Translations under genes and position numbers: made by a program
Notes under the pieces: generated by a model
What the model saw: the letters and a program-made list of their open reading frames with translations, nothing else
The model's database searches: none
What the model was told of the DNA's origin: nothing
Assembly: GCA_028282925.1 (NCBI GenBank)
Contig: JANQGV010000047.1
Location: forward strand, 1 to 32,759
DNA length: 32,759 bases
Direction of reading: 5' to 3'
From: Thermodesulfobacteriota bacterium
GTDB lineage: Bacteria > Desulfobacterota > WTBG01 > CAIYCZ01 > CAIRTM01
In this document: positions 4,756-22,045 of the stretch, in pieces
Layout of the letters: every line of letters starts with the position of its first letter
Position numbering within the stretch: position 1 is the stretch's first letter

Positions 4756-4910
4756 ATTTTACCGATAGCCTGACTGCAATTGATGGGCTATATTTTTATC
4801 TATTCCGGCGTGTTGCATTTTACGGCAGGGGAGGCCGTCAACAGGATACGCACACCGGGTTTCGATTCGTAGATGTCATGTATACATATATCAATGAAAG
4901 GCGGATACCC

Positions 4911-5900
4911 ATGGCGACACGCACTGACGACCCGGCTCAGAGAGCCGCAGCCAACGAAGGCATCATCGGCGTCTCTGAAACAATGCAGGAGATTTTTAAA
5001 AAAATAGACCTAATAGCTCATGAAGACGTGACGGTTCTCCTCCTGGGGGAAACCGGCACGGGCAAAGAGATTATCGCCCGCAGGATCCATGCCGGAAGCA
5101 AACATTCGCACGGGCCTTTTGTGGCGGTGAATATGGGGGCCATAGCCACGGAGCTCGTGTCCAGCGAACTGTTCGGCCATGAAAAGGGGGCGTTTACCGG
5201 GGCAACGGAGGCGCGCCAAGGGCTCTTTGCCGCAGCCGAGAACGGGACGATTTTTCTGGATGAACTGAGCAGCATGGCCCACAAAACGCAAACAGCGCTC
5301 TTGAGAATTCTGGAGAACCGCACATTCAGGAAAGTCGGCGGAAACAAGCATTATACTACGAACACCCGCATTATTGCGGCAAACGATGCTGATTTGCGGA
5401 TCGCGGTCGAAGCGAAAAAATTTCGCAGAGATTTGATGTATCGGCTTGAGGTGTTTACCATACAGATACCGCCGTTGCGCGAGCGCCGGGAGGAAATCCC
5501 CGCGCTGGCAGCGTATTTTATCAAGCTTTTTTCCGAAGAGATGGACACGAACGTGACCGGCATAACAGAAGAAGCCTTTGAATGTCTCTTGCAATACAAC
5601 TGGCCGGGTAACGTCAGGGAGCTGAAGAATGTCGTTCAGAGTGCCATGCTGCTTGCAGAAACAGAAAAAATCACCCCGGATGATCTTCCCACCAGGATTG
5701 TTGCGAAGGAATGCACGCGCGCGCCATCGGCTCTGTGTCCGCACCTGTGCTTGAAAGAGGTGTTTAAACTCCATATAGCCCAGGCTCTCCAGTCGACGAA
5801 CGGGAACAAGTCCAGGGCGGCGGAAGCACTGGGTGTCAGCAGGCAATACCTGTACAGTAAGATTGCGGAATACAAGATAGACGCTCTTTTTCTCCAATGA
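4911..5900 (+). CDS. PspF-like sigma-54 transcriptional activator, second paralogue
   Basis: This 329-aa paralogue of the protein at 540-1517 has the same layout: Walker A GETGTGKE (46-53), canonical GAFTGA (93-98), Walker B TIFLDE (113-118), conserved LRERREEIP, then a Fis-type helix-turn-helix (about 285-325, ending VSRQYLYSKIAEYKID). I chose the ATG at 4911 because GAAAGGCGG sits six bases before it and because this start gives identical motif numbering to the paralogue. An upstream in-frame ATG at 4878 would add 11 residues. No sensory domain is present. Unlike its paralogue it keeps the canonical GAFTGA loop, so the two may differ in how they contact sigma-54. The gene ends 14 bases from the convergent gene at 5914. 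Confidence 0.95.
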   Translation: MATRTDDPAQRAAANEGIIGVSETMQEIFKKIDLIAHEDVTVLLLGETGTGKEIIARRIHAGSKHSHGPFVAVNMGAIATELVSSELFGHEKGAFTGATEARQGLFAAAENGTIFLDELSSMAHKTQTALLRILENRTFRKVGGNKHYTTNTRIIAANDADLRIAVEAKKFRRDLMYRLEVFTIQIPPLRERREEIPALAAYFIKLFSEEMDTNVTGITEEAFECLLQYNWPGNVRELKNVVQSAMLLAETEKITPDDLPTRIVAKECTRAPSALCPHLCLKEVFKLHIAQALQSTNGNKSRAAEALGVSRQYLYSKIAEYKIDALFLQ

Positions 5901-7201: not shown

Positions 7202-10200
7202 TTACTCCGCTGCCGATACTGGGGTGAGCGGCACCCGCATGATGACCCACACCTTTTTTTTCATCCCAAGATGATCAGACACTGTTATCCGGGCAACATA
7301 GAATCCCGCAGCCATTTTTTTTTCTCTCTTTATCGACAAGGTCAGTTTTTGCTCAGCGTGTGCTTCGAGATACCCCTCAGCAGGGCTTGTGTCGAGCCAG
7401 CCGACGTCACCGGATGGTGTCAACCAGCCGTATTCTATCGACTCGATGTGCCACGGAAAGCCTTCACTCCCGTTGTTGCGCAGGGTAAGGGTGTCCTGTG
7501 TTTTGTCCCGACGGAAAAAAAACTTCATTCCCCGATCCGTATCAAGTATTCCCTGCATGCCGGGAACACCGGCCCGCACCCGGACCTGTGAAAACCGACC
7601 TGGGGTGAAGACCGTAATGACACCGGTATACACACCCTCCGGCAGGTCCTGCCGATCAATACCGACCTTTACGGTCTTACCGTCTCCAAGGGCCAGCGTG
7701 CCGCTGTCGGCATCGGTGTACAGCCATCCGGTTGCGTTGTCATAACTGATCTGCAGGCCCCAGGCCATCGTTTCATAGCCCCTGTTTTCCACCGTGAAGG
7801 TTTTTACCGTATCTTCCCATCCGAACACAATGGATTCATTATCGACATAGAGCCCGGGGGTCGGCTGATAATACTCCTCGGCAACTTTCATGCTGATTCG
7901 CACCTTCCCGCTTCCACCATTTGACGAAACGGGGATATCGGCCCTATAGGTGCCGGGGTCAAGCCCATTGCGCGACACGGAAACGTCCACGGGGGAAACG
8001 TCCGTCGTCGCACCTGATACGTGCTTGACAGCCGTTATCCAGCCGCTGCCCACCATGTATTGGATGTCTCCGATAGTCCACTGCAGAGCACCATACCCGG
8101 ATGTGTTTTTTATGAAAAATCGTTCCTGCGACTTTTCGAAACCGAGATCAATAGAGTGCGGCAATGATAAAACAGGCTTTCGAGAGGAGCCGCCACCGCC
8201 GCCCCCCCCACCACCACCTGTTGATCCGGTGGTAGTCGTTGTCTCTTCCGTGCAGGTAGCCCGGGCCTCATCGCAGACCGCATCGGTTGTTGCGCAGGGA
8301 TCACCCAACGATACGCATGCATGATCGATACACACTTCAGGACCGTTGCAGAACAGCCCGTCGTCAGTGCAGTTATCGTCATCAAAACAGGCAATACCCA
8401 ACCCGGATATATTTCTGATGATTCTCAACGCGGGATCATCATCATAGTCACCGTTGTCGGTGACATATACCGTCACAACCTTTCGATCGGCGCTGAAAAC
8501 GGCCCCCTGGGTCTCGCCCTCCGACGGTGTCCCACTATTGAAATCGATCCACCCGTATTTTGTGGTGTACGTATACCAGGTGTATCCCGCGGGGGCCGGC
8601 CCAGGTAAATATATTTTTACAGCAGCGGTGCCGCTGTTTTTCTCCGCTTCAATGCGTATGTCGTACATGCCGTACAGTATTTCTGCAGGCCTGTTTTGGG
8701 TTCCGGGCAGGCCGGCGGGATCAATATGGCTTATTCTTTTCATTCCTCCGTCCATCTCAGCCACTTTTGAAAACAGCGCTGCAACTGTTTTGTTATTGTC
8801 GATTGTTATTGTGCCCGGATTTTCGAATCCACCCATATCATATCCCCACCCCGCAAACAGGCAGTTTGAATCGTTTTCAGGCACGGCAAACAGTAAAACC
8901 GATGTTCCTTCCTGATAAACGGTACTTTGATAGGGCTGTGGGGCGGCGATAATCGTTCCCTCACAGGCACCACCGGTTGTGAGATGTACATTAAAAACCC
9001 GCCGGCACACATATCCCGCAGCCTCATCACATACCCTGTCCGGGCCGCAGTCCTCATCGGAACGGCATTCGCATACTTCGTCCCCACCGTCGCAGTCCTC
9101 GTCGATACCATTTTCGCATATCTCCGCAGCACCGGGAAATACGGATAGATCGTCATCATCACAGTCATCACCCGGCTTCTCATTGCACTCTTCAGGAATG
9201 CACTTATAGGTACCGCACACATCGGTCGGCTTCCGGCTGTAATAGGTGTCCGCATCGTTATCACAGTAATAGTTTTGCAGGCATATGCCGCCATTGTCGA
9301 CAATGCCGTCGCAGTCATTGTCGACGGCATCACATATCTCTTCCTCCGGAGATCCGCCGACACAGGTATCAACGATTTCGCCTTTACTGCATATCAGCCG
9401 ACCGTGGGACGCACAGGCGCCCCGTCCGCATAAGGTCGGCGTCTCCTCAAAATGCTCATCCGTCTCCCCATCACAATCATCATCCACCCCGTCACAGGTA
9501 TCGTCGACACCTGTGGGTATGCAGCCCTGTTCTGCAATCACTGCAAAGGCATTGCTTGAACCGCTGACGTCTTCGTCTTCGGCGCTCAGGACCGTGTTTT
9601 CGCCCACCTCATACAGCGTCATCTTTCCGGTCCATCTGCCGTTTTCAAAAACCGTGGTTGCAACGGGTTCGACAATCTGCGCACCGTCTGTGTTCGACGC
9701 GCTCAGAGCCGCGAAGCCGTCATAGGTCATGATCCTCTCGTCAGCACTGTTCTTTGCCGTTATGGTTACCGCAAAAGGAGAACGGGCCGTTACGGGAGAT
9801 GCTATCTCATCAAATTCAAAATGAGTCAGGACGGTGTTTACCTCCCTCACCTCGATATCGTCCCATTCCCGCCCGTCGGTATCCCAGGGGAGGTTGTCGT
9901 ATTGCTGAAACTTGATTTTGAACGTATCGGTATAGCCGAAAGAAGGGTCGATTGTTCTGACGGCGGATAGTTTCCCGTCAAGGTCGATATAATACGTCCG
10001 GCCCGGGCTGTCCAGTTCGGCAGCGGTAACAATCGTATACCACCTGGTACCGTCATTGCTCACGGCAACGCCGTCACCATTTGCATGTCCGTTGAAAAAA
10101 GCAGGCAGCTCGGTTTCTTCATCGTTGGAATCGGCCTGAAAAAAGCTCAATTGAACACCGGCGGCATCCTCAAGGGCAAGGGTAAGGACCGCTTCATTGA

Positions 10201-12238
10201 GGTTGTACTGCGCACCTGAGGACACATCCATGCGAAGTCTGCCGCCCGAGACGGCAATACGACCGTTCGTAGCGTCCGAGGAATAAAAACTCCAGTATTC
10301 AGGAGGTGACCGGGGCGACATGTCCGTGAAGTCTTCGGTGTACGGCAGGGAAGGAATGTATCCGTAGACGGCCGACAGCGTGTAATCATCATCCAAGTGA
10401 ATTGTTATGGGATTCTCCGGCTGAACCCGACCGTTGACCTGCCACCACATGAAATCGTCCCCGTTATGGGTGTCCGGCGCCGTTAAGGAAACCACCGTGT
10501 CCGGGTTATAATAGCGCATAAAATCGGTCTGAGACGTCCCATTGCCGTATTCATCGGCCGGATCCGGCACAATCGTCGCCCCCGGCGGGGAAGAGCTCAC
10601 CTTGATAAACCGGTACATGTTTTTCATATAGGTGAAAGACATGGTTTCACCGTATTCGGAAATATCAACAAGGCCGAAGCCGCTCGGGGAGCCGTCGTAA
10701 AATGCGGAGTTCGGGCTGCTGTAGGGGTTGAAACGATTGTTGTTGCCGGCATAAAAAAGCGTTGTTTGATCGCCGCGGCAGGTACTCAGGATCATATCGC
10801 AGAGTGTCGTCGCAGCCTGTACCGGCAAGACTCCCTGGTGCCCGGACTCCGTCCACCGGTTGATATCATTTGCACCGGGAGATCCGACTGTTGTGTCGAT
10901 ATGCGTTATCAGCAGTCCTCCGCTGAAATCGTCACCGATCCTTTTCAGGCCCCGGTCCCATCCTGTGCACCATCTGTTTTCCGCAAGAAAGTATTCCGTC
11001 GTGCTGTAAAGCGAATCAACAAGCAGTACGGCCTCATGCGGCGAGGAGAGCGGTGTTTCGAGACTCAACACCTGCGGATCTCCTAAGGGGGCCACCGGAT
11101 CGCACCATCCGACATACATACGCGACCATGCGTCAAGGTTGACCGGCGTAGTGCCGCCGGCTTCACCGGTGTCCGCGCCCCAGCTTCCCGTCGCCATTAA
11201 AGAAAAATACCCCATGGCACCATTTACCTGGGCCGTATCATACAAATCCGGAAGCCCGCACATCTGGTGGCCCAGTTCATGAGCGATGACCCCCATGGGA
11301 TGCATCTCGGAAGTATTGTTCAGCTCGCCGCTTGTGGCCCAGGCCGACAGGATTTTCGTCCCCGCATACACCGGGTCCGTTGCCCTGCTTCCCCATGCAT
11401 GGGCCCATATACTGGGCCTTTTGGTCGTTCCCGAAGCTTCATATCCCGCAGGAATGAAATAAATGATCAGCTCATCCGGGTCTAGTGAGCCGTCGCTGTT
11501 ACCGTCCAGCTCATCAAAATCAACAGCATCCCAGGCGGACTCCAGGGCCGGACCCAGCCAGGCCTTCTCCATGGCATAATTAAAGGAGCCCGCATAATCG
11601 GGATGCGGCATTTCAAGGCCGACGGTAATTACGCCGGGCGGGTTTCCCGTCTGGTTGTGTGCGGCGGGAACCAGCACGAGATCCTGGAATGAATTGTCCA
11701 GATAATAGCGGGCAACGGATTTAATCCCGTCGGCTGTGTCCAGGATGGCGTCGTACCACTCATCAGCAGTGGTCGTGAGCGTTGCATCGGTGAAATTCAC
11801 TAAAATCAGCAGGAATTTTTTCTGCCCCGATACGGGAACAGGGTCCCATACCCCGGCCGCAACCCTCATGCGGCCGGTGCGTGTTTTTCTTAGATACCGT
11901 CTGAAATCTTTCTCAAAATCGGTATTTTTGGGAGGCCGTATTCGTTTTCGGAAGGGCGGCGGCACGCCGCCTTCAACAACAGCCACGCCCGAAGGAGCCG
12001 GCATCCCTGCAGGGTCCTCTCGTGCATATTCCCAGAAACCGGTTCTTTCGCTTACAACTACCGAGGAGCCGTCTGTTGTTTCCACCCAGTTTTGAAACTC
12101 ATCACCTCGTATTGTCCCCAGGAAGGCACTTCCATCCGGTTGAATAACAGCGACAGGTTCAGGATTTGCCGGACTTGCGTAAGAATGCGAAACGGCCCCC
12201 ATTACACAAGCAAGAACAATGATTGCGTACTTACTCAT
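7202..12238 (-). CDS. Giant secreted M6-family metalloprotease with accessory domains
   Basis: This 1678-aa exported protein has a signal peptide (about 1-22) and an M6-type (immune inhibitor A-like) protease domain over about residues 120-520. The zinc site is HELGHQMCGLPDLYD (His320, Glu321, His324). An EF-hand-like calcium loop, DGNSDGSLDPDE, lies at 245-256. Downstream, in order, are a Pro/Gly-type bacterial repeat (about 545-630), a jelly-roll-like segment (640-800), an Ig-like module (800-900) and MopE-like motifs such as CDGVDDDCDGETDE (900-1030). Next come another InlB-like repeat, a choice-of-anchor-U-like block ending in DNGDYDDDP, a CTDDGLFCNG Cys-rich motif, a Thr/Gly linker and three BACON-like Ig domains at the C-terminus. 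AAGGAG precedes the ATG. The likely job is extracellular proteolysis with carbohydrate or surface adhesion. No sorting signal is visible at the C-terminus. Confidence 0.9.
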   Translation of the reverse strand: MSKYAIIVLACVMGAVSHSYASPANPEPVAVIQPDGSAFLGTIRGDEFQNWVETTDGSSVVVSERTGFWEYAREDPAGMPAPSGVAVVEGGVPPPFRKRIRPPKNTDFEKDFRRYLRKTRTGRMRVAAGVWDPVPVSGQKKFLLILVNFTDATLTTTADEWYDAILDTADGIKSVARYYLDNSFQDLVLVPAAHNQTGNPPGVITVGLEMPHPDYAGSFNYAMEKAWLGPALESAWDAVDFDELDGNSDGSLDPDELIIYFIPAGYEASGTTKRPSIWAHAWGSRATDPVYAGTKILSAWATSGELNNTSEMHPMGVIAHELGHQMCGLPDLYDTAQVNGAMGYFSLMATGSWGADTGEAGGTTPVNLDAWSRMYVGWCDPVAPLGDPQVLSLETPLSSPHEAVLLVDSLYSTTEYFLAENRWCTGWDRGLKRIGDDFSGGLLITHIDTTVGSPGANDINRWTESGHQGVLPVQAATTLCDMILSTCRGDQTTLFYAGNNNRFNPYSSPNSAFYDGSPSGFGLVDISEYGETMSFTYMKNMYRFIKVSSSPPGATIVPDPADEYGNGTSQTDFMRYYNPDTVVSLTAPDTHNGDDFMWWQVNGRVQPENPITIHLDDDYTLSAVYGYIPSLPYTEDFTDMSPRSPPEYWSFYSSDATNGRIAVSGGRLRMDVSSGAQYNLNEAVLTLALEDAAGVQLSFFQADSNDEETELPAFFNGHANGDGVAVSNDGTRWYTIVTAAELDSPGRTYYIDLDGKLSAVRTIDPSFGYTDTFKIKFQQYDNLPWDTDGREWDDIEVREVNTVLTHFEFDEIASPVTARSPFAVTITAKNSADERIMTYDGFAALSASNTDGAQIVEPVATTVFENGRWTGKMTLYEVGENTVLSAEDEDVSGSSNAFAVIAEQGCIPTGVDDTCDGVDDDCDGETDEHFEETPTLCGRGACASHGRLICSKGEIVDTCVGGSPEEEICDAVDNDCDGIVDNGGICLQNYYCDNDADTYYSRKPTDVCGTYKCIPEECNEKPGDDCDDDDLSVFPGAAEICENGIDEDCDGGDEVCECRSDEDCGPDRVCDEAAGYVCRRVFNVHLTTGGACEGTIIAAPQPYQSTVYQEGTSVLLFAVPENDSNCLFAGWGYDMGGFENPGTITIDNNKTVAALFSKVAEMDGGMKRISHIDPAGLPGTQNRPAEILYGMYDIRIEAEKNSGTAAVKIYLPGPAPAGYTWYTYTTKYGWIDFNSGTPSEGETQGAVFSADRKVVTVYVTDNGDYDDDPALRIIRNISGLGIACFDDDNCTDDGLFCNGPEVCIDHACVSLGDPCATTDAVCDEARATCTEETTTTTGSTGGGGGGGGGGSSRKPVLSLPHSIDLGFEKSQERFFIKNTSGYGALQWTIGDIQYMVGSGWITAVKHVSGATTDVSPVDVSVSRNGLDPGTYRADIPVSSNGGSGKVRISMKVAEEYYQPTPGLYVDNESIVFGWEDTVKTFTVENRGYETMAWGLQISYDNATGWLYTDADSGTLALGDGKTVKVGIDRQDLPEGVYTGVITVFTPGRFSQVRVRAGVPGMQGILDTDRGMKFFFRRDKTQDTLTLRNNGSEGFPWHIESIEYGWLTPSGDVGWLDTSPAEGYLEAHAEQKLTLSIKREKKMAAGFYVARITVSDHLGMKKKVWVIMRVPLTPVSAAE
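8202..8209 (-). repeat. Homopolymeric C8 tract within the protease gene
   Basis: Eight consecutive C (G8 on the coding strand) lie in the codons of the polyglycine linker between the Cys-rich motif and the BACON-like domains. Slippage here would shift frame and remove the C-terminal adhesion domains while leaving the protease domain intact. Whether it varies is unknown. Confidence 0.8.
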
Positions 12239-12595: not shown

Positions 12596-12624
12596 AAAAC
12601 CCGGCGGCTTTGCCGCCGGGTTTT
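12596..12624 (-). terminator. Strong rho-independent terminator after the surface-protein gene
   Basis: AAAACCCGGCGGC pairs perfectly with GCCGCCGGGTTTT around a three-base loop: a 13-bp stem with A and T runs at its two ends, so it could work in both directions. It lies 38 bases after the stop of the surface-protein gene. Confidence 0.85.
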
Positions 12625-12662: not shown

Positions 12663-15600
12663 TCAACGTATCATAACAATGTTGAATGTTGTTGCCAGGC
12701 TCTGGGAACCGGTTTTTGCGGTAACCTCTACGAGCTGTTCCCGGGCGCTTGCCAGCCATGCGGGTTTCACAAAGATAAAGCATCTGATCTGCGTGGGGCT
12801 CGTGATCCTTGTGATAATCGGCCGCACTGCGCTCGAGGGATCAAACGTTACCTTCGTACTCGCATCGAATGCCGTGTTTTCGCCGGTAATGGTCACTATC
12901 GCCGGGATACCGAACAGCCAGGCGCGTCTCAGCGTTTGGGCCACACGGATTCTTGCCGTAGCGGTAGCGATAAAATCAACATTCACATCCACGTCGACGA
13001 TCGTTACCTCAAGCTGTTCCGGGGTGAAGGTGTACCCCTCCTTGGAGGGCACAACCGTATAGGTCCCGGACGGCAGGCCGCTGATGATATATCGGCCGTC
13101 ATCCTGGGTAACATACGAACCGGCCTCACCCATAATAAGCAACGTAACGCCTGAAAGCGGGGTATTATTGATGGTAACCCTGCCGGCTATTGCAAATGTT
13201 GCGTCCGGTTCGGGCTCAGGTACCGGAGGTTCATCCCCGGGAGGAATCGTCGTTGTGGGTTCGGTTCCATCAGTAGCTCCACCGCCCGAGGAGCCGCCGC
13301 CCGAAGAGCCGCCGCCTGAGGAGCCGCCGCCGGTACCACCACTTCCGCCGCCGTTTACAGGAGGCGGTTCCTGATCATTCGGTCCGGGAATATTGCAGGT
13401 GAAATTCACCGGGGTTCCGTCCGCATTGGCGACAATGCTTTCATTGTCCGGATCTCCGAGATTGTCGTCACGCGCTAAAAATGTCTGCGTTACACCGTTG
13501 GGGTCTTTCCAGGGACTGACCGAAACCCGGTACGTATCGTTTTCCAGATCACAGAACTCATAGAATCCGTCCTGTACGGCCAGGGTGGTGTCAATGGGGG
13601 TGTTTTCATCGGACGCCGTAAAAAGGTTTACCATGGCGCCTTCGACGTTAACCAGCCCCTGTCCCGCCACACACGCAGAAACGCTGCCGTTTATACAGTA
13701 TGTATCGGGCGGATCATCACACTCACAGGTTCCCTGGACATATACTTCTTCGTCTTCCCGGTAGACGGTTACCGTGCCCGCCTCCGTAAAGGTAAATCCT
13801 TCACGTTCGACGGTTATCTCATAGTCGCCGGGTTTCAGGCTGCATACCTCATAGGCCTCATGATTGTAAATATACGGCGCGACATGTGAAACGTCGTCCT
13901 CACCGGTTATCGTTACAACGGCGTCGTCCATGTTCATCCACTTGCCGGGCTCACACAGAATTCCCTTTACATCGACTTTAATGCAGTACAAATCCTTTTC
14001 CTGTACCCAGGAGCTGGTCAGCAGGAAGTCGCTGGGCACACAGCGCTTCTTCCCGTGTCCATGGCCATGCCCATCCCCGTGTCCATCACCATGTTTGTGG
14101 ACACAATCATCGTCACGGCAGCGATGGAACCTGCAGGGGTTGTCCTCATGTTTCGGCAGCCGGAACATAGTATACTGTTTGGGCAGGGTATCAAACGGCT
14201 TGCTGATGAAGGTCTCGGGATCGCCTTCCTTGAGCACTTCATACAGGGTTCCGCTGAACCGCGGCTCGATGGTTTCCTCAACCCAGCTTTCGGCCGCAGG
14301 ACACACCTTTTCAACTTCTTCCTCGCCGTTGATGTCGTCTTTCACATAATGCCGGCGGTTGAACGGCGGCAGCAGCGGCAGATCGCAGCACGGCGGCACG
14401 CAGTTTTTGACCAGCGAAAGATTAGGAAAGGCGATGTTGCCCAGTTCTTCATCTTTGGCCGGATCGTCACCGGTAAAGATTTCACATTCATCATTATCCG
14501 ATGGATAGCCGACACATTTCGGCAGCGGGTTCCGGATCGTTATGTACTTGAATGTATAATCACACTTCTCGTCTTCACTATCGCATTCGCCGTCTTCGGC
14601 ATCGCAAATGGTAAAGATTCTGGCGATATCATATTCAGCACCGTCGGAGAAGAAGGTCTCGCCTTCCATCAGCAGCCGCCCGGCCTGAACATATATCTCA
14701 GGATCTCCGACTTCATCATTGGCCACAGCCAGCAAATCCATATACCAGGGCCTGATTACCGGCTCGAGGCCCGGGCAGCCCGGGTCGCTTGACAGGCAGT
14801 ATGCCTCCCGCTCAACGTATATCGTCTCATCGGTCTTGAGGGTAACCGTATCGATAATCGGCGGTTCTTCCATGCCGTACTTGTACGGGTAGCGGATTTC
14901 AAAGTTTACCGACGGGTCGTCTCCTCCCTGAATTTCCTTGACGATCACTTTTTTGTCGATAAACTGAAAAGAATCACCCTCTTGCAGACTCAACAGGGGG
15001 GTGCCGATATCGATCACGGGACGGTTCGTGGTTTCACCATCCAGATCCGTGAAGTCCATCCGGCAGACCTTATTCAGAATCACCGCGTCATCCCGTCCGT
15101 TCTGATCAACATCCCATCCTTCAAGGCCGATTTGATGGTTGTCGAAAATGCAGTTGTTATGGTTTCCTCCGCCTTGCTCCGGAGCTGAACCGTTTCTGAT
15201 GTGTTTGCAGCTCTCCCAGGTGGTGGGAAAAACGAAGCTGGTAATCCCGGCTGCTCCCGCGGTAGGCCTGTCATATCCGTCAAGCAGCATAAAAGAGTAT
15301 TCCTTGACGATGTCGTGGGTATACTTCTTTACCTCCGGTGTCCATACATCACCGCGGGGCTCTTCATATTCGGGTACATACCACTGTCGCAGAAATACCT
15401 TTTCGCTGGCATCATCTCCATTGACGATAATCGAGGTCTTGTAAAATTTGCTTTCGCCTTCGCCGTCATCTCCGCCGTAGAGCCAGGCGGGATTCCAGGT
15501 AAGGAAATCCTTGGGATGTGCCTCAGGGTGGGTCGGGTCGAAGGGTGCCGCGGGATCTTCATACGGAAACGGTGCATCATAGGTACCCTCGCCATAGAGC

Positions 15601-17651
15601 CTTACAAAGTTCTCGAAATACGTTTTACATCTGGGCCTTCCATTGTTCCCGCCCTCACTAGCGTCACTGCTTCCTCTATAGCAGCACTCGAGAACATCGG
15701 GCTCTTCCACGCAATCGCATGTGGGATTGATATACACATCGATTATCCCCGGATCTTTGGGGTCCGAAGGCGGAAAATCATCGGGTGGTTTATATGCGAA
15801 TTTAACCCGGGCATATTCGTCGTTGATTTTATCCGAGTTCGGAGCCCGAAATGAGCTGGTAAGCAGGTAATCACCGGGTTTGGTATACCTTGATGTGTTT
15901 GGATCGTAATAATCGGCCTGCCTGCCCTGGCCTTCCTCGCCCGGCAGAATGAGCCTGGTAAAGCGCCACGGCATGGTCTTGAGATCAAGGGACATGAAGG
16001 TTTCCTCGCACCACCCTTCGCAGAGCACTTCATACAACTTGGTATAAAACCGTTTTTCCTTGCTTTCCTCGACCCAGTATTCTTTCACCGGCCTGATGGG
16101 CCGCTCGAGCTCATACGGCGAGGTTTCACCGATAATCCCCGCTAAACCGTTGATGTCATCCCGTGCAAAATGGTCCTGATTAAAGGGCGGCAGCAAAGGA
16201 ATCCTTTTTCTTGACGGGTACCCGTTGGGCTCTTCGTCATCGATGATGTCTTCCGTATCGGCTTTGCGAATGCAGTTTTTCCAGACGGAAAGATTAGGGA
16301 AGTAGATATTGTCATACTCATCTCCATCATATCCGCCTAAAAAGGCATAGGGGTCACCGTCGGTCGTATACCCGCCGTACCCGTCGTCGCAGTCGATGCA
16401 TTTGGGCAGGGGATTTCTCAGGGTGATGTATTTCAGTTTGTAGAGGTCATCGTCCTGAATAACATGAATCTTGGATATGTCGTATTCGGCGCCGTCGGAA
16501 AAAAACGTTTCACCCTCCACCAGAACTCTTCCCACTTTGATCAGGCAATAGCTTTCATCCGGGTTTTCGATATCGATCTGGATGGAATCCACATACAGAT
16601 ACCAGGGTTGATCAATGGGGGTAAGGTACGGCGCCCAATCTTCAAAGGGGTCGACGCTGTGCTGATTCACCGTGTGCCGGCCGGCGACAAGCAGGTCGCC
16701 CTCTCGCAGCAGGAAATTCGTAGGGCCGATGGGCAGTTCCCTCTTGAATTCGACGGGATAATAGATTTTGACCTCCACCATCTTGTTGTTGATACCGGTG
16801 GCATTAATGTCTTTTACCGTTACCCGATGGTCTATGAAACGGAATGTGGTGGGTTCACCGCCTAATTCCCGGCTGTACAACTGCTTCAGATCGGCCGTTT
16901 CGAGTTGCACATAGCTGCGCTCTGCGCCTTTTATTTCTTTTTTACCAACCGCTCTCAGTTTTACGGACCTGAGATCGCCATCGTCGTATGCTCTGTCAAA
17001 ATCTTCGAGTCCGATCTGCCGGTTTTCATAATCCGGCTCATTGATCCAGCTCTTATAATCGGTGGGGAATAAAAACTTTGAATCCGGCAGGGACGGCGCC
17101 GGCTGGGGGTCCATAGGATCGCCTTTCAGAAGCATGTAGGAATACTCCTTGACGATATCCGCGCTTTTAATGGCAGGCTGGTTTGTCCATACAAGGCCGC
17201 GAGGCTCCGGATATTCAGGAACATACCATTGCCGCAGAAATACCTTTTCACGGCCATTGGTCAGCGAGCCGCCTCGAGTCAACTTCAAACTGATTTTATG
17301 CAGATATTTTTCGCGTTCGATGGATTCACACATAAAGGCCGGATTCCAGGTAATAAAATCCTTCAGGGGGGCCTCGATGTGGTCCGGATCGAAAGGCGCC
17401 TCCGGATCAGTATAGGGAAATGCGGCATCTTTTGAGTCATCCCCATAGATCCGAAGCCCCCCGAGGGGCATCTTTTCGTCTTTGGACTGAATATAAATCC
17501 CGTCCTTATAATATTTATGTACGCTGAAATTAACTCTTTTGTCCTCATCATAGTCATCCGGCACGTTCGCCTGTGCCGGAAAGCACCAGCACAGGACAAG
17601 CAGTACGGACACATAAAACTCAAGCTTGCTATACCCTGGTTTTGTTTTCAT
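12663..17651 (-). CDS. Giant exported surface-type protein with duplicated N-terminal module
   Basis: The preferred start is the ATG at 17651, preceded by GGGGAG, giving about 1662 aa with a signal peptide ending near PAQA (residue 28). A longer frame to 18080 lacks a signal and is unlikely. Residues about 65-610 and 683-1215 are a tandem duplication: both halves contain VFLRQWYVPEY, DIVKEYS(Y/F)MLL, ETFFSDGAEYDI, NPLPKC, PLLPPFN and DDING in the same order. I cannot name this module; the motif style is reminiscent of methanogen S-layer-like proteins, but that is recollection, not a search. The second half carries a His/Asp/Gly/Cys-rich insertion (about 1173-1204). The C-terminus has carboxypeptidase-regulatory-like beta domains (1222-1420), a Ser/Gly then Pro/Glu linker, a further such domain (about 1490-1570) and an IPT-like end. 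Likely an envelope or extracellular structural protein. Confidence 0.85.
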   Translation of the reverse strand: MKTKPGYSKLEFYVSVLLVLCWCFPAQANVPDDYDEDKRVNFSVHKYYKDGIYIQSKDEKMPLGGLRIYGDDSKDAAFPYTDPEAPFDPDHIEAPLKDFITWNPAFMCESIEREKYLHKISLKLTRGGSLTNGREKVFLRQWYVPEYPEPRGLVWTNQPAIKSADIVKEYSYMLLKGDPMDPQPAPSLPDSKFLFPTDYKSWINEPDYENRQIGLEDFDRAYDDGDLRSVKLRAVGKKEIKGAERSYVQLETADLKQLYSRELGGEPTTFRFIDHRVTVKDINATGINNKMVEVKIYYPVEFKRELPIGPTNFLLREGDLLVAGRHTVNQHSVDPFEDWAPYLTPIDQPWYLYVDSIQIDIENPDESYCLIKVGRVLVEGETFFSDGAEYDISKIHVIQDDDLYKLKYITLRNPLPKCIDCDDGYGGYTTDGDPYAFLGGYDGDEYDNIYFPNLSVWKNCIRKADTEDIIDDEEPNGYPSRKRIPLLPPFNQDHFARDDINGLAGIIGETSPYELERPIRPVKEYWVEESKEKRFYTKLYEVLCEGWCEETFMSLDLKTMPWRFTRLILPGEEGQGRQADYYDPNTSRYTKPGDYLLTSSFRAPNSDKINDEYARVKFAYKPPDDFPPSDPKDPGIIDVYINPTCDCVEEPDVLECCYRGSSDASEGGNNGRPRCKTYFENFVRLYGEGTYDAPFPYEDPAAPFDPTHPEAHPKDFLTWNPAWLYGGDDGEGESKFYKTSIIVNGDDASEKVFLRQWYVPEYEEPRGDVWTPEVKKYTHDIVKEYSFMLLDGYDRPTAGAAGITSFVFPTTWESCKHIRNGSAPEQGGGNHNNCIFDNHQIGLEGWDVDQNGRDDAVILNKVCRMDFTDLDGETTNRPVIDIGTPLLSLQEGDSFQFIDKKVIVKEIQGGDDPSVNFEIRYPYKYGMEEPPIIDTVTLKTDETIYVEREAYCLSSDPGCPGLEPVIRPWYMDLLAVANDEVGDPEIYVQAGRLLMEGETFFSDGAEYDIARIFTICDAEDGECDSEDEKCDYTFKYITIRNPLPKCVGYPSDNDECEIFTGDDPAKDEELGNIAFPNLSLVKNCVPPCCDLPLLPPFNRRHYVKDDINGEEEVEKVCPAAESWVEETIEPRFSGTLYEVLKEGDPETFISKPFDTLPKQYTMFRLPKHEDNPCRFHRCRDDDCVHKHGDGHGDGHGHGHGKKRCVPSDFLLTSSWVQEKDLYCIKVDVKGILCEPGKWMNMDDAVVTITGEDDVSHVAPYIYNHEAYEVCSLKPGDYEITVEREGFTFTEAGTVTVYREDEEVYVQGTCECDDPPDTYCINGSVSACVAGQGLVNVEGAMVNLFTASDENTPIDTTLAVQDGFYEFCDLENDTYRVSVSPWKDPNGVTQTFLARDDNLGDPDNESIVANADGTPVNFTCNIPGPNDQEPPPVNGGGSGGTGGGSSGGGSSGGGSSGGGATDGTEPTTTIPPGDEPPVPEPEPDATFAIAGRVTINNTPLSGVTLLIMGEAGSYVTQDDGRYIISGLPSGTYTVVPSKEGYTFTPEQLEVTIVDVDVNVDFIATATARIRVAQTLRRAWLFGIPAIVTITGENTAFDASTKVTFDPSSAVRPIITRITSPTQIRCFIFVKPAWLASAREQLVEVTAKTGSQSLATTFNIVMIR

Positions 17652-18458
17652 ATTTTTCTCCCCGTCATATTTATTTAGAAAAAACCGTTCATATAACCCG
17701 CTCTGATTATTTTGCTTTTTATAGGAATCCCCCGTTGTTGTTTGCTCTCTTTTTCTCACCTCCTTTGCTTGGATTAGGGGATGAATCTTCAACACCGCCC
17801 AGGTGAAAAAGACCCTGGAATGAAACCATAACGCATATACCGTGCCACAAGCGGTATTGAATTGCTCATTGCCGATAAGTGAAGTTTCGTTAAGCAATTG
17901 GCAGACGTTCCTGGGTTCGGGCTTTGCATCCGGAGCACACTGCGCCGGGCTTGTTGTAACGTGTGGATACAGGTGAGGGATACACTTGTAAAAAATGCTG
18001 ACACTCCCCAAATCCCGTTCACGAAGCCGGCAGCACGCTTGAGCGGCCGCCGCACATGTGCACGTCACGGCAGGGTCCACAAATGTATCCGGATGATTCC
18101 ATAAGAGGCCGTCTGCAGGAGGGGGGAGGTGTGCGGTCTCGTATCACTGCCGTCAGGTACGTAATTACTTATACAGGACGGCGATGGAAGATGTCCGAGT
18201 GTCCGTGGGACCGACACACCTTTGAAAAACGGGGCAGGCGGGATGTGTATAAAAAATCGCGTCTGAATATAGCTGTTCGAAGGGTCCGGCGGAAGCATGT
18301 AAAAGGAACAACAACGCAATGAGATATATGTAGCCGGGTAGGAGCGGCCTTCGGCCGCGATACAGGCCGTAAAACCTACAGAGTTCATTAATCGCACCTG
18401 ATATTGAGGCTATAGAATTTTGTGAATTGCTCTAGGGAGCGTCTTTTCCGGGGCAAGC
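17652..18458. other. Upstream region of the surface-protein gene
   Basis: About 800 bases without a credible gene. On the minus strand a hairpin in which two CCGG arms enclose GCAGTGTGC is followed by ATGCAAAGCC (near 17925-17955), which superficially recalls a cyclic-di-GMP-I riboswitch core but lacks the rest of the consensus. The third copy of the miniature inverted-repeat element lies at 18316-18434. The leader of the surface-protein gene may be long. Confidence 0.45.
18316..18434 (+). repeat. Miniature inverted-repeat element, copy 3 (left end decayed)
   Basis: The interior matches copy 1 closely: CCGGGTAGGAGCGGCCTTCG, then GAGTTCATTAATCGCACCT, then TTGAGGCTATAGAA. The right end TGTGAATTGCTCTA is the family terminus, but the left end has diverged to GCAATGAGATATATG. 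It lies 24 bases beyond the stop of the response regulator gene at 18459. Confidence 0.7.
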
Positions 18459-19728: not shown

Positions 19729-21555
19729 CTATGGAGTGCCGGTTTCCCTGGGGTTGTCGTAATGTGTCCATTCGAACCAGCCGCCATCGTAGTTGGCGGC
19801 TTCCCAGCCCATGAGGTAGGCGTAAAAGGTGTATAACCCGGATCGCCAGCCCCCGCCGCAGTAAAAGTAGCTCTTTTTATCGGATGACAGCCCTGAGTCG
19901 ATCCAGTCCTGTTCTACCTCGGTATAGGTTTTCAGGGATTCAAAGTCCTCCCTGGTCAGCTCCCACCAGTCGCCGACCCAGATGGCGGTTTTTATGCGCC
20001 CCAGTTCATTGAAGTACTGATAGTAGGAGTTCGACTGGCCGATATATTCTTCCCATGACCGGTCATCCACAATAACGGCATCCTGGTTTGTTCCATTTAC
20101 CACGGCCAGCAGATCATCTGTTGCGGCAAGATAGCGGGGATTACCCGTGCTGTCTCCGAAGCTTACGGGAACGGGCGTGTTGGGGGCTGTTTCGATTTCT
20201 CCGCCGTATTCGACCCAGGCGTCGTAGTTGCCGTTGAGCACCCGGACGTCATTCACGCCGGCAAGCAGCAGGGCCCATGCAGCGCGCCCGGCCGTCATCA
20301 TTGATATGTCGTCATCGGCATACACCACGACCGTCATATCCTTTGATATGCCGAGACTGCCGAGGTGTTCCTGGAGCTCAGCGATGGGTTTGATGTTTCC
20401 TTCTTCCGGATACGCATATCCATCGGCATATTCCGAATTCGGCCCGTTTTCCAGTAAGTAGATATCCGTAAAAACAGCACCGGGAATATGCCCTTCTTCA
20501 TACACGGTTCCGGCATAATCCGACCGGTTTTCTGAATAGCGGGGTTCATAGGACGGGTAAAGAACGACATACCCGTTTCCCGGATATGTGGGCGGATTTT
20601 CATCGTTGATGAGTTTGTCGACCCATGCCGGGTAGACCAGCGCCTGATGGTTTTCCATCTTCTCCATCGGCAGGGATGCATCCGCGGCCCATTCAAACAT
20701 GGAGTTTGCGTAGTTTGAACAGTTCTGGTACCCGAGCAGCCGAAGGGCAAAATAGACGAAACCGCTTCTAATGCCGGCGGTGCAGTAGGATGTTACTTCC
20801 TGGTCGGACGTTATACCGCGGCTGGTAAACAGAGCCAGAAGATCTTCATAGCCCAGCACGGTGCCGTTATCGGAAGCATAGAACCATTTGTAGGGAATCT
20901 GGACGGCCCCGGTAATGTGACCGCCGCGTGCTTCACCGTAGAGTTGCCAGCCGTTGTATTCCTCGTCGGTACGGGAATCGATGACGGCAAAATCGCTGTT
21001 ACCGAGACGGCTGCTGATGGAATCGGCGGTGCTCAACACCTGTTCGCGCAACGACGGTATAAACGTTGCGGGCGGGAGGGTGTTCGGGGTAGACTCGGTC
21101 TGCCGCTCTTCCAGCACCCACAGATCCCAGCCGCCGTTCAGAATGTGTACATCGGTGCAGCCGAGGTATTCGAGCATCCAGAATATCCGGCCTGCTGCTC
21201 CCCATGATGCCAGGGTGTCGTCATAGACGACAAAGGTTGCGTCGCGGGTCAGACCGGCCGCACCGAGTTTTGCGGCAATTGCCGATGCCGACAGCAGCCT
21301 TTTGTTTTCGTCGACATACTCACCCCACTGCACACTGACGGCACCGGGTATATGAGCTGTTTCATACCCCGATGAGCGGGCATCGATGATGACCACACCG
21401 GGCTCTTCCATAATTGTTTCAAGGAATTCACCTGCAACCAGCAATTCCCCGTTGGGGTACGCTCCCTGGGGAAAATCAATAGGAGTTTTGCAACCCGCGC
21501 AGATACACACGATCAGCGCGGCAATGACACATATACTGCTTTTTTTTGTTTTCAT
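19729..21555 (-). CDS. Four-domain rhodanese (sulfurtransferase) lipoprotein
   Basis: This 608-aa envelope protein is built from four rhodanese domains, arranged as two thiosulfate-sulfurtransferase-like pairs. Domains 1 (about 35-150) and 3 (310-455) lack the catalytic Cys: their active loops read YDDTLASWGAAGR and YADDDISMMTAGR. Domains 2 (172-295) and 4 (475-600) keep the CxxxxR loop, YCTAGIRSG (Cys258) and YCGGGWRSG (Cys566). Each pair thus has the usual inactive-active order of TST enzymes, duplicated in one chain. The N-terminus is a signal sequence with a Cys at residue 22 in CAGC; the -3 residue is atypical for a lipobox, so lipidation is likely but not certain. The ATG at 21555 is preferred over upstream in-frame codons because it gives this signal. 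A small exported protein is encoded 28 bases upstream and is probably cotranscribed. Substrate unknown; periplasmic sulfane-sulfur transfer is plausible. Confidence 0.92.
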   Translation of the reverse strand: MKTKKSSICVIAALIVCICAGCKTPIDFPQGAYPNGELLVAGEFLETIMEEPGVVIIDARSSGYETAHIPGAVSVQWGEYVDENKRLLSASAIAAKLGAAGLTRDATFVVYDDTLASWGAAGRIFWMLEYLGCTDVHILNGGWDLWVLEERQTESTPNTLPPATFIPSLREQVLSTADSISSRLGNSDFAVIDSRTDEEYNGWQLYGEARGGHITGAVQIPYKWFYASDNGTVLGYEDLLALFTSRGITSDQEVTSYCTAGIRSGFVYFALRLLGYQNCSNYANSMFEWAADASLPMEKMENHQALVYPAWVDKLINDENPPTYPGNGYVVLYPSYEPRYSENRSDYAGTVYEEGHIPGAVFTDIYLLENGPNSEYADGYAYPEEGNIKPIAELQEHLGSLGISKDMTVVVYADDDISMMTAGRAAWALLLAGVNDVRVLNGNYDAWVEYGGEIETAPNTPVPVSFGDSTGNPRYLAATDDLLAVVNGTNQDAVIVDDRSWEEYIGQSNSYYQYFNELGRIKTAIWVGDWWELTREDFESLKTYTEVEQDWIDSGLSSDKKSYFYCGGGWRSGLYTFYAYLMGWEAANYDGGWFEWTHYDNPRETGTP

Positions 21556-21583
21556 TCCTGATCCTTTCTTTGCTGCCGATTTC

Positions 21584-22045
21584 TTATTGAGCCAGCGAAA
21601 AACGTACCTGGCAGTTGTAAGCCGGAAGATGTTGAGACAGGGCCACCCCGCAGTAGAGCCACACAAATCCGTAGGGCTGTGCAGCGCTGCCGATCTCGAC
21701 GATCTGATCGATCATGCCCTTTGACACACCGGCCCGGTATATGGGGGTTGTGCCGGCGCTTGAGAAGGCAGCGCCGGTCATAAAGAGCGTATCACCGGCA
21801 ACATCGTCCTTTTGTAACGAGATGCCCAGTGTGCCCGAGCCGAGTATGACGACAAAAAAATGCGGGCAGCCCCAGGGAAACAGCTCCTGCTGTCTGATAT
21901 CAATTGCCCTTGTCATGCCGGGCATGATGGTCAGTATGGTGGTTGTCCCCAGAACTGCATCAGCGCAAACCGGCGCGATGCCTGCTGTGTTGCAGGCAAG
22001 GACGGTCAAAACAACCAGAACGCCTTTTTTTAGTGTATTGATCAT
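21584..22045 (-). CDS. Small exported protein of unknown function
   Basis: From the ATG at 22045 this is a 153-aa protein with a clear N-terminal signal (lysines at residues 6-7, then VLVVLTVLA). The signal could end at Cys18 (VLAC, lipoprotein-like) or after CADA near residue 30. The mature part is beta-rich and Gly/Thr-rich and contains four Cys, with no recognised domain. It lies 28 bases upstream of the rhodanese gene on the same strand, so it may be a periplasmic partner in the same pathway. The longer frame to 22105 would mask the signal and is unlikely. Real-gene status is supported by the signal peptide and the tight spacing. Confidence 0.7.
   Translation of the reverse strand: MINTLKKGVLVVLTVLACNTAGIAPVCADAVLGTTTILTIMPGMTRAIDIRQQELFPWGCPHFFVVILGSGTLGISLQKDDVAGDTLFMTGAAFSSAGTTPIYRAGVSKGMIDQIVEIGSAAQPYGFVWLYCGVALSQHLPAYNCQVRFSLAQ

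Follow-up and report, generated by a model that had tools for sequence, protein, structure and literature searches.

The minus strand of the window (the whole 32,759-nt stretch of DNA analyzed, a contig of a Thermodesulfobacteriota bacterium) encodes a large two-module protein, which is best read as belonging to an undescribed family of secreted proteins of the surface or matrix that spans two domains of life, with members in archaea, in Chloroflexota and in this sporadic bacterium. We consider it probable that the protein is an exported structural or adhesive component of the surface or matrix, that a pair of all-beta modules forms its core and that its gene reached the genome through an old transfer between domains. 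The family extends the repertoire of surface proteins in methanogens and anaerobic methanotrophs and presents a large surface-protein design that is common to archaea and Chloroflexota and sporadic in another bacterial phylum.

The gene is an unbroken frame (12663-17651, minus strand) running from an ATG at 17651 to a TGA at 12663 and translating to 1662 residues. The frame is open farther upstream, giving a longer GTG-initiated ORF that reaches 18080; the ATG was favored because an RBS-like GGGGAG (about 17658-17663) lies 6 nt ahead of it. The features of the gene and its 3' flank are as follows.

12666..17651, minus strand: coding sequence of the predicted secreted two-module surface protein, 1662 aa (stop codon at 12663-12665)
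17568..17651, minus strand: predicted N-terminal Sec signal peptide, residues 1-28, ending ...FPAQA/N (hydropathy scan, by inspection)
15726..17465, minus strand: module 1, residues about 63-642 (self-comparison, relatives, all-beta AlphaFold2 model with pTM 0.80)
13938..15611, minus strand: module 2, residues about 681-1238 (self-comparison, relatives, double-module model with pTM 0.73)
13392..13931, minus strand: SdrD_B/PEGA-like beta-sandwich domains, residues about 1241-1420 (Pfam PF17210, 9e-12; PF08308, 3e-4)
13212..13376, minus strand: Gly/Ser-rich linker, residues about 1426-1480 (sequence)
12972..13199, minus strand: carboxypeptidase regulatory-like domain, residues about 1485-1560 (Pfam PF13620, 9e-14)
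12666..12971, minus strand: C-terminal ~100 residues, without a family match, dockerin, cohesin or transmembrane helix (Pfam, hydropathy)
12597..12623, minus strand: perfect 12-bp hairpin, AAACCCGGCGGC-AAA-GCCGCCGGGTTT, 3' of the gene (sequence)

The predicted export signal and the two-module layout are evident from the translation itself. Apart from the signal peptide, the hydropathy scan detected no strongly hydrophobic stretch in the protein that could serve as a C-terminal transmembrane anchor, and Pfam detected neither a dockerin nor a cohesin. The hairpin is probably a terminator, to judge from its sequence; it was not among the results of a consensus scan. The next gene downstream (7202-12238, minus strand) also encodes a surface protein, an M6-type metalloprotease with MopE copper-binding-like motifs, choice-of-anchor U and BACON-like domains and a poly-Gly linker. 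Elsewhere in the window, two sigma-54-type AAA regulators without a receiver domain (540-1517 and 4878-5900, plus strand; 63% identical) flank a histidine kinase/LuxR-type response regulator pair, a lipoprotein-like protein carries four rhodanese stretches in one chain (19729-21666, minus strand), and a methyl-accepting chemotaxis protein frame runs to the contig end (30762-32759, plus strand). A sulfate-reducing identity of the host genome was considered and rejected, as no dsrA was found above the cut-off.

The preliminary description of this DNA had reported a tandem duplication within one chain, and this holds far above chance: residues 1-690 and 691-1300 align by BLASTP over 531 columns, in which 38% are identical (E 4e-83). 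Both copies contain five landmarks in one common order, namely VFLRQWYVPEY (residues 137 and 752), ETFFSDGAEYDI (381 and 998), NPLPKC (413 and 1041), PLLPPFN (485 and 1092) and DDING (498 and 1105). Module boundaries were refined by comparison with relatives, giving modules of ~560 residues; module 2 is Cys-rich (20 Cys) and bears a His/Gly-rich insertion. The two copies were also said to be about equally conserved, which agrees with our count: with 53 columns defined as at least 90% conserved across 66 other modules, copy 1 retains 47 and copy 2 retains 45. AlphaFold2 predicted module 1 as all-beta (pLDDT 69, pTM 0.80), and the double-module model reached pLDDT 70 and pTM 0.73.

No named family could be given to the module, as the preliminary description had anticipated: neither as a single sequence nor as a profile did it match Pfam, NCBIfam, PHROGs or PDB sequences. 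The host genome contains no module relative, and only the common C-terminal Ig-like domains match elsewhere in it. A search of 78 relatives yielded no family member, a single E 0.002 match in a stop-broken frame being taken as chance, and even with an improved profile only one of 395 sampled genomes of the phylum was positive, namely the window's genome itself. Plasmids, phages and viral contigs yielded no module relative in the searches, nor did the first whole-genome motif scan, with QWYVPEY and [FY][FY][ST]DGAEY. The productive scan covered 84,980 species genomes with the degenerate motif KY[IV]T[LIV]RxP[LI]P; after confirmation in tblastn, for which the real window module was the query, it gave 14 loci. 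Among these are Methanolobus and other Methanosarcinaceae (about 30% identity, 5e-59), ANME-1/Methanophagales, a Methanomicrobia MAG, a Diapherotrites MAG, a Chloroflexota MAG and one CSSED10-310 contig. Both window modules match the relatives over their full length, with the conserved landmarks present. Thus archaeal relatives exist, and no common bacterial family was matched.

Profile A8, built from 20 modules, then matched at least 28 of the 345 genomes sampled from the phylum of Methanolobus and at least 23 of the 249 sampled from the class of the Chloroflexota MAG. Since A8 includes the window modules, any E-value that it gives the window is circular; this does not affect the initial motif and tblastn matches, the window sequence having entered there only as the confirming query. 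Alignments A4-A7 contained artificial decoy rows, served only for choosing the scan motif and carry no weight as evidence.

Two modules behind a signal peptide are found in nearly all family members, the window protein included; the exceptions are locus L125, which has a single module, and L021, which lacks its start at a contig end. What follows the modules differs among lineages. The sequences of methanosarcinal members close with a dockerin-like tail of two repeats (GDxNGDxxVNFxDF...), which dockerin or EF-hand models match only weakly, and the product of the gene after them has two or three cohesins; in Methanolobus, a one-cohesin gene lies directly upstream of the family gene. Chloroflexota members carry CarboxypepD_reg, dockerin and cohesin domains in addition and adjoin genes for cohesin-LysM proteins. 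Because genes for GyrB and for an EPSP-synthase-family protein reading as MurA are neighbors on the Chloroflexota contig, we regard that contig as truly bacterial. The four ANME-1 members L022 and L024-L026 all show split matches, module 1 being interrupted by a VWA-type domain (Pfam, L022), and a PGF-CTERM protein gene comes after the one checked (L022). One or two family genes are present in ANME-1-type genomes, and about one per genome in the family. In L122 (6956-10856; G725, a genome of an archaeal phylum), the family gene is broken up into four short frames, reflecting decay or sequencing error.

In the relatives, therefore, sequence and gene order tie the module pair to a cohesin-dockerin surface assembly. 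The window protein shares CarboxypepD_reg with the Chloroflexota type and is without dockerin and cohesin; cohesin domains occur in its genome only on two other contigs (C273 and C43), no dockerin was found in the genome, and no cohesin was found among the window proteins scanned. Accordingly, its tie to such an assembly runs through its relatives.

The cohesin-dockerin context is classically that of polysaccharide-degrading enzymes, which raises the alternative of a secreted protein with an enzymatic or carbohydrate-binding role, carried in the relatives like a cellulosomal enzyme. Several aromatic and acidic residues, invariant across the module alignment, would suit such a function. Pfam and NCBIfam gave no enzyme family for the window protein, no carbohydrate-binding family was matched, and the fold searches returned no enzyme at a significant level; moreover, cohesins and dockerins occur in many prokaryotes that are not thought to degrade cellulose (PMC9012536). 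We thus judge an enzymatic or carbohydrate-binding role to be improbable and favor a structural role.

In the trees, the window modules group with methanosarcinal archaea (93/75) and with the Chloroflexota protein L020 (94/91). At about 1.0 per module, the window branch is long, which makes its exact place unsure. A clade of all bacterial members was rejected (AU p 1.9e-5), and a clade of the window and L020 alone was not (p 0.19). The GC3 of the window gene, 0.60, equals the level of the neighboring genes; together with the tree grouping, this makes an old cross-domain transfer, in either direction, followed by adaptation to the genome the simplest reading. The earlier suggestion of a transfer is thus credible as an old cross-domain event, given that the nearest relatives in the tree are methanosarcinal.

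With its nearest relatives archaeal, the contig could in principle be chimeric, or archaeal DNA contaminating a bacterial bin. The one CSSED10-310 contig (L016) looks misbinned in just this way: rejected as an independent bacterial member, it is probably a misbinned Methanolobus-like contig because the tree places it within Methanolobus and its two-module-dockerin gene adjoins a Methanolobus-like cohesin gene. The window differs, in that its 32.8 kb carry bacterial sigma-54-type, LuxR-type and histidine-kinase genes, the GC3 of the gene matches that of its neighbors, its modules are only ~38% identical to archaeal ones, and its C-terminal domains are typical of bacterial surface proteins. Contamination or chimerism is largely refuted and, in our estimate, highly improbable.

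Modules 1 and 2 group by lineage and not by their position in the chain. A single ancient duplication, with the two modules separate ever since, was rejected, as the data are incompatible with a clade uniting all first modules (AU p 1.2e-5, quick tree), and in every lineage the identity table shows the modules of one protein to be more alike than modules from different lineages. The tandem arose on many occasions, or else its copies were repeatedly homogenized; repeated duplication is possible because L125 has a single module. In L123 and L124, the modules are 85-87% identical within each protein, with stretches at 100%, and ~60% identical between the proteins; the very even 85-100% stretches fit recent duplication and gene conversion alike. 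The pair thus seems to have been remade or homogenized repeatedly, which suggests that having two copies matters for how the protein works.

The motif style had initially been likened to that of methanogen S-layer-like proteins. A link to methanogen surface proteins is credible, because the family has archaeal relatives and the nearest of them in the tree are methanosarcinal; the further proposal of a surface layer of archaeal type fared less well. Under that proposal the protein would be a true S-layer subunit whose tandem modules tile a two-dimensional lattice, like the Methanosarcina tile protein with its tandem-duplicated domain (PMC12369344). The plan is indeed that of the tile, comprising a signal peptide, a tandem module and an acidic C-terminal region (PMC12369344), and the Methanosarcina tile domain (3u2g) ranked first when the double-module model was compared by fold with 350,542 PDB chains (prob 0.80), the other matches listed having a prob of 0.16 or less. 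This match is below significance (E 0.0097) and poorly aligned (TM 0.26, rmsd 18.8); module 1 alone gave no significant fold match among PDB or viral models, with 3u2g outside its top 50. The top rank is noteworthy because the tile was the hypothesis before the search, and the alignment is too poor for membership. The profile comparison with the S-layer family that had been proposed as a check gave no similarity: when the module profile was aligned by hhalign with 10 and then 25 DUF1608 (PF07752) domains, scores did not exceed those of shuffled decoys. PF07752 had no match in the window protein at E<=1 and none in its genome at E<=10.

The distribution of PF07752 bears on the same question. 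Each of five Methanosarcinaceae genomes with the family has 7-20 separate PF07752 matches of its own, and the domain is absent from the ANME-1-type, Diapherotrites and Chloroflexota genomes and from that of the window, except for a weak fragment in G406. Considering the separate tile genes, the occurrence of the family in Chloroflexota and the lack of a membrane anchor in the window protein, we regard a true S-layer subunit as unlikely. On the other side stands the presence of one or two copies per genome in ANME-1-type genomes, mostly without PF07752, where the S-layer protein is unknown (PMC9012536); ANME-1 lack recognizable S-layer domains, yet their cell shape suggests an S-layer (PMC9012536). 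As a speculation with a rather small chance of being right, the family might be the overlooked S-layer or main outer scaffold of DUF1608-less ANME-1 and related archaea, a very distant relative of the tile fold, and the bacterium would then have taken over an archaeal-type surface-lattice protein. The family is in any case a testable candidate for the cell envelope of ANME-1, in which none is recognizable according to PMC9012536.

Returning to the favored reading, an exported structural or adhesive protein, we infer that the pair of ~500-600-residue all-beta modules would form a rigid, non-catalytic extracellular unit, which may be tethered to the envelope or matrix through the C-terminal part, a partner being shown in the relatives only. 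In the window protein, this part consists of Ig/prealbumin-like domains and the Gly/Ser linker in place of a dockerin. The gene would have been gained by an old cross-domain transfer and later adapted to its genome.

Among known systems, the Methanosarcina tile (DUF1608/PF07752, MA0829, PDB 3u2g) resembles the window protein in being exported, beta-rich and built from two tandem domain copies in methanosarcinal archaea, and in being the top, albeit weak, fold match. It differs in that there is no profile similarity, the window module is about twice as long, the window protein has no C-terminal membrane helix, and the same methanogens have separate PF07752 genes. The cohesin-dockerin assemblies of archaea and non-cellulolytic prokaryotes (PMC9012536, PMC10553843) are comparable in that the relatives carry dockerins or cohesins and adjoin cohesin genes, whereas the window protein has neither domain and its genome has no dockerin. 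The SH sheath proteins of Methanospirillum, Methanothrix and ANME-1 (PMC11576556) are likewise beta-rich archaeal surface proteins, present in some ANME-1. Without extra domains, they measure 150-350 residues, have an amyloid core of two six-stranded cross-beta sheets and reach up to 40 copies per genome (PMC11576556), whereas the two-module family, whose modules span ~500-600 residues and which has about one gene in each genome, is set apart by size and copy number.
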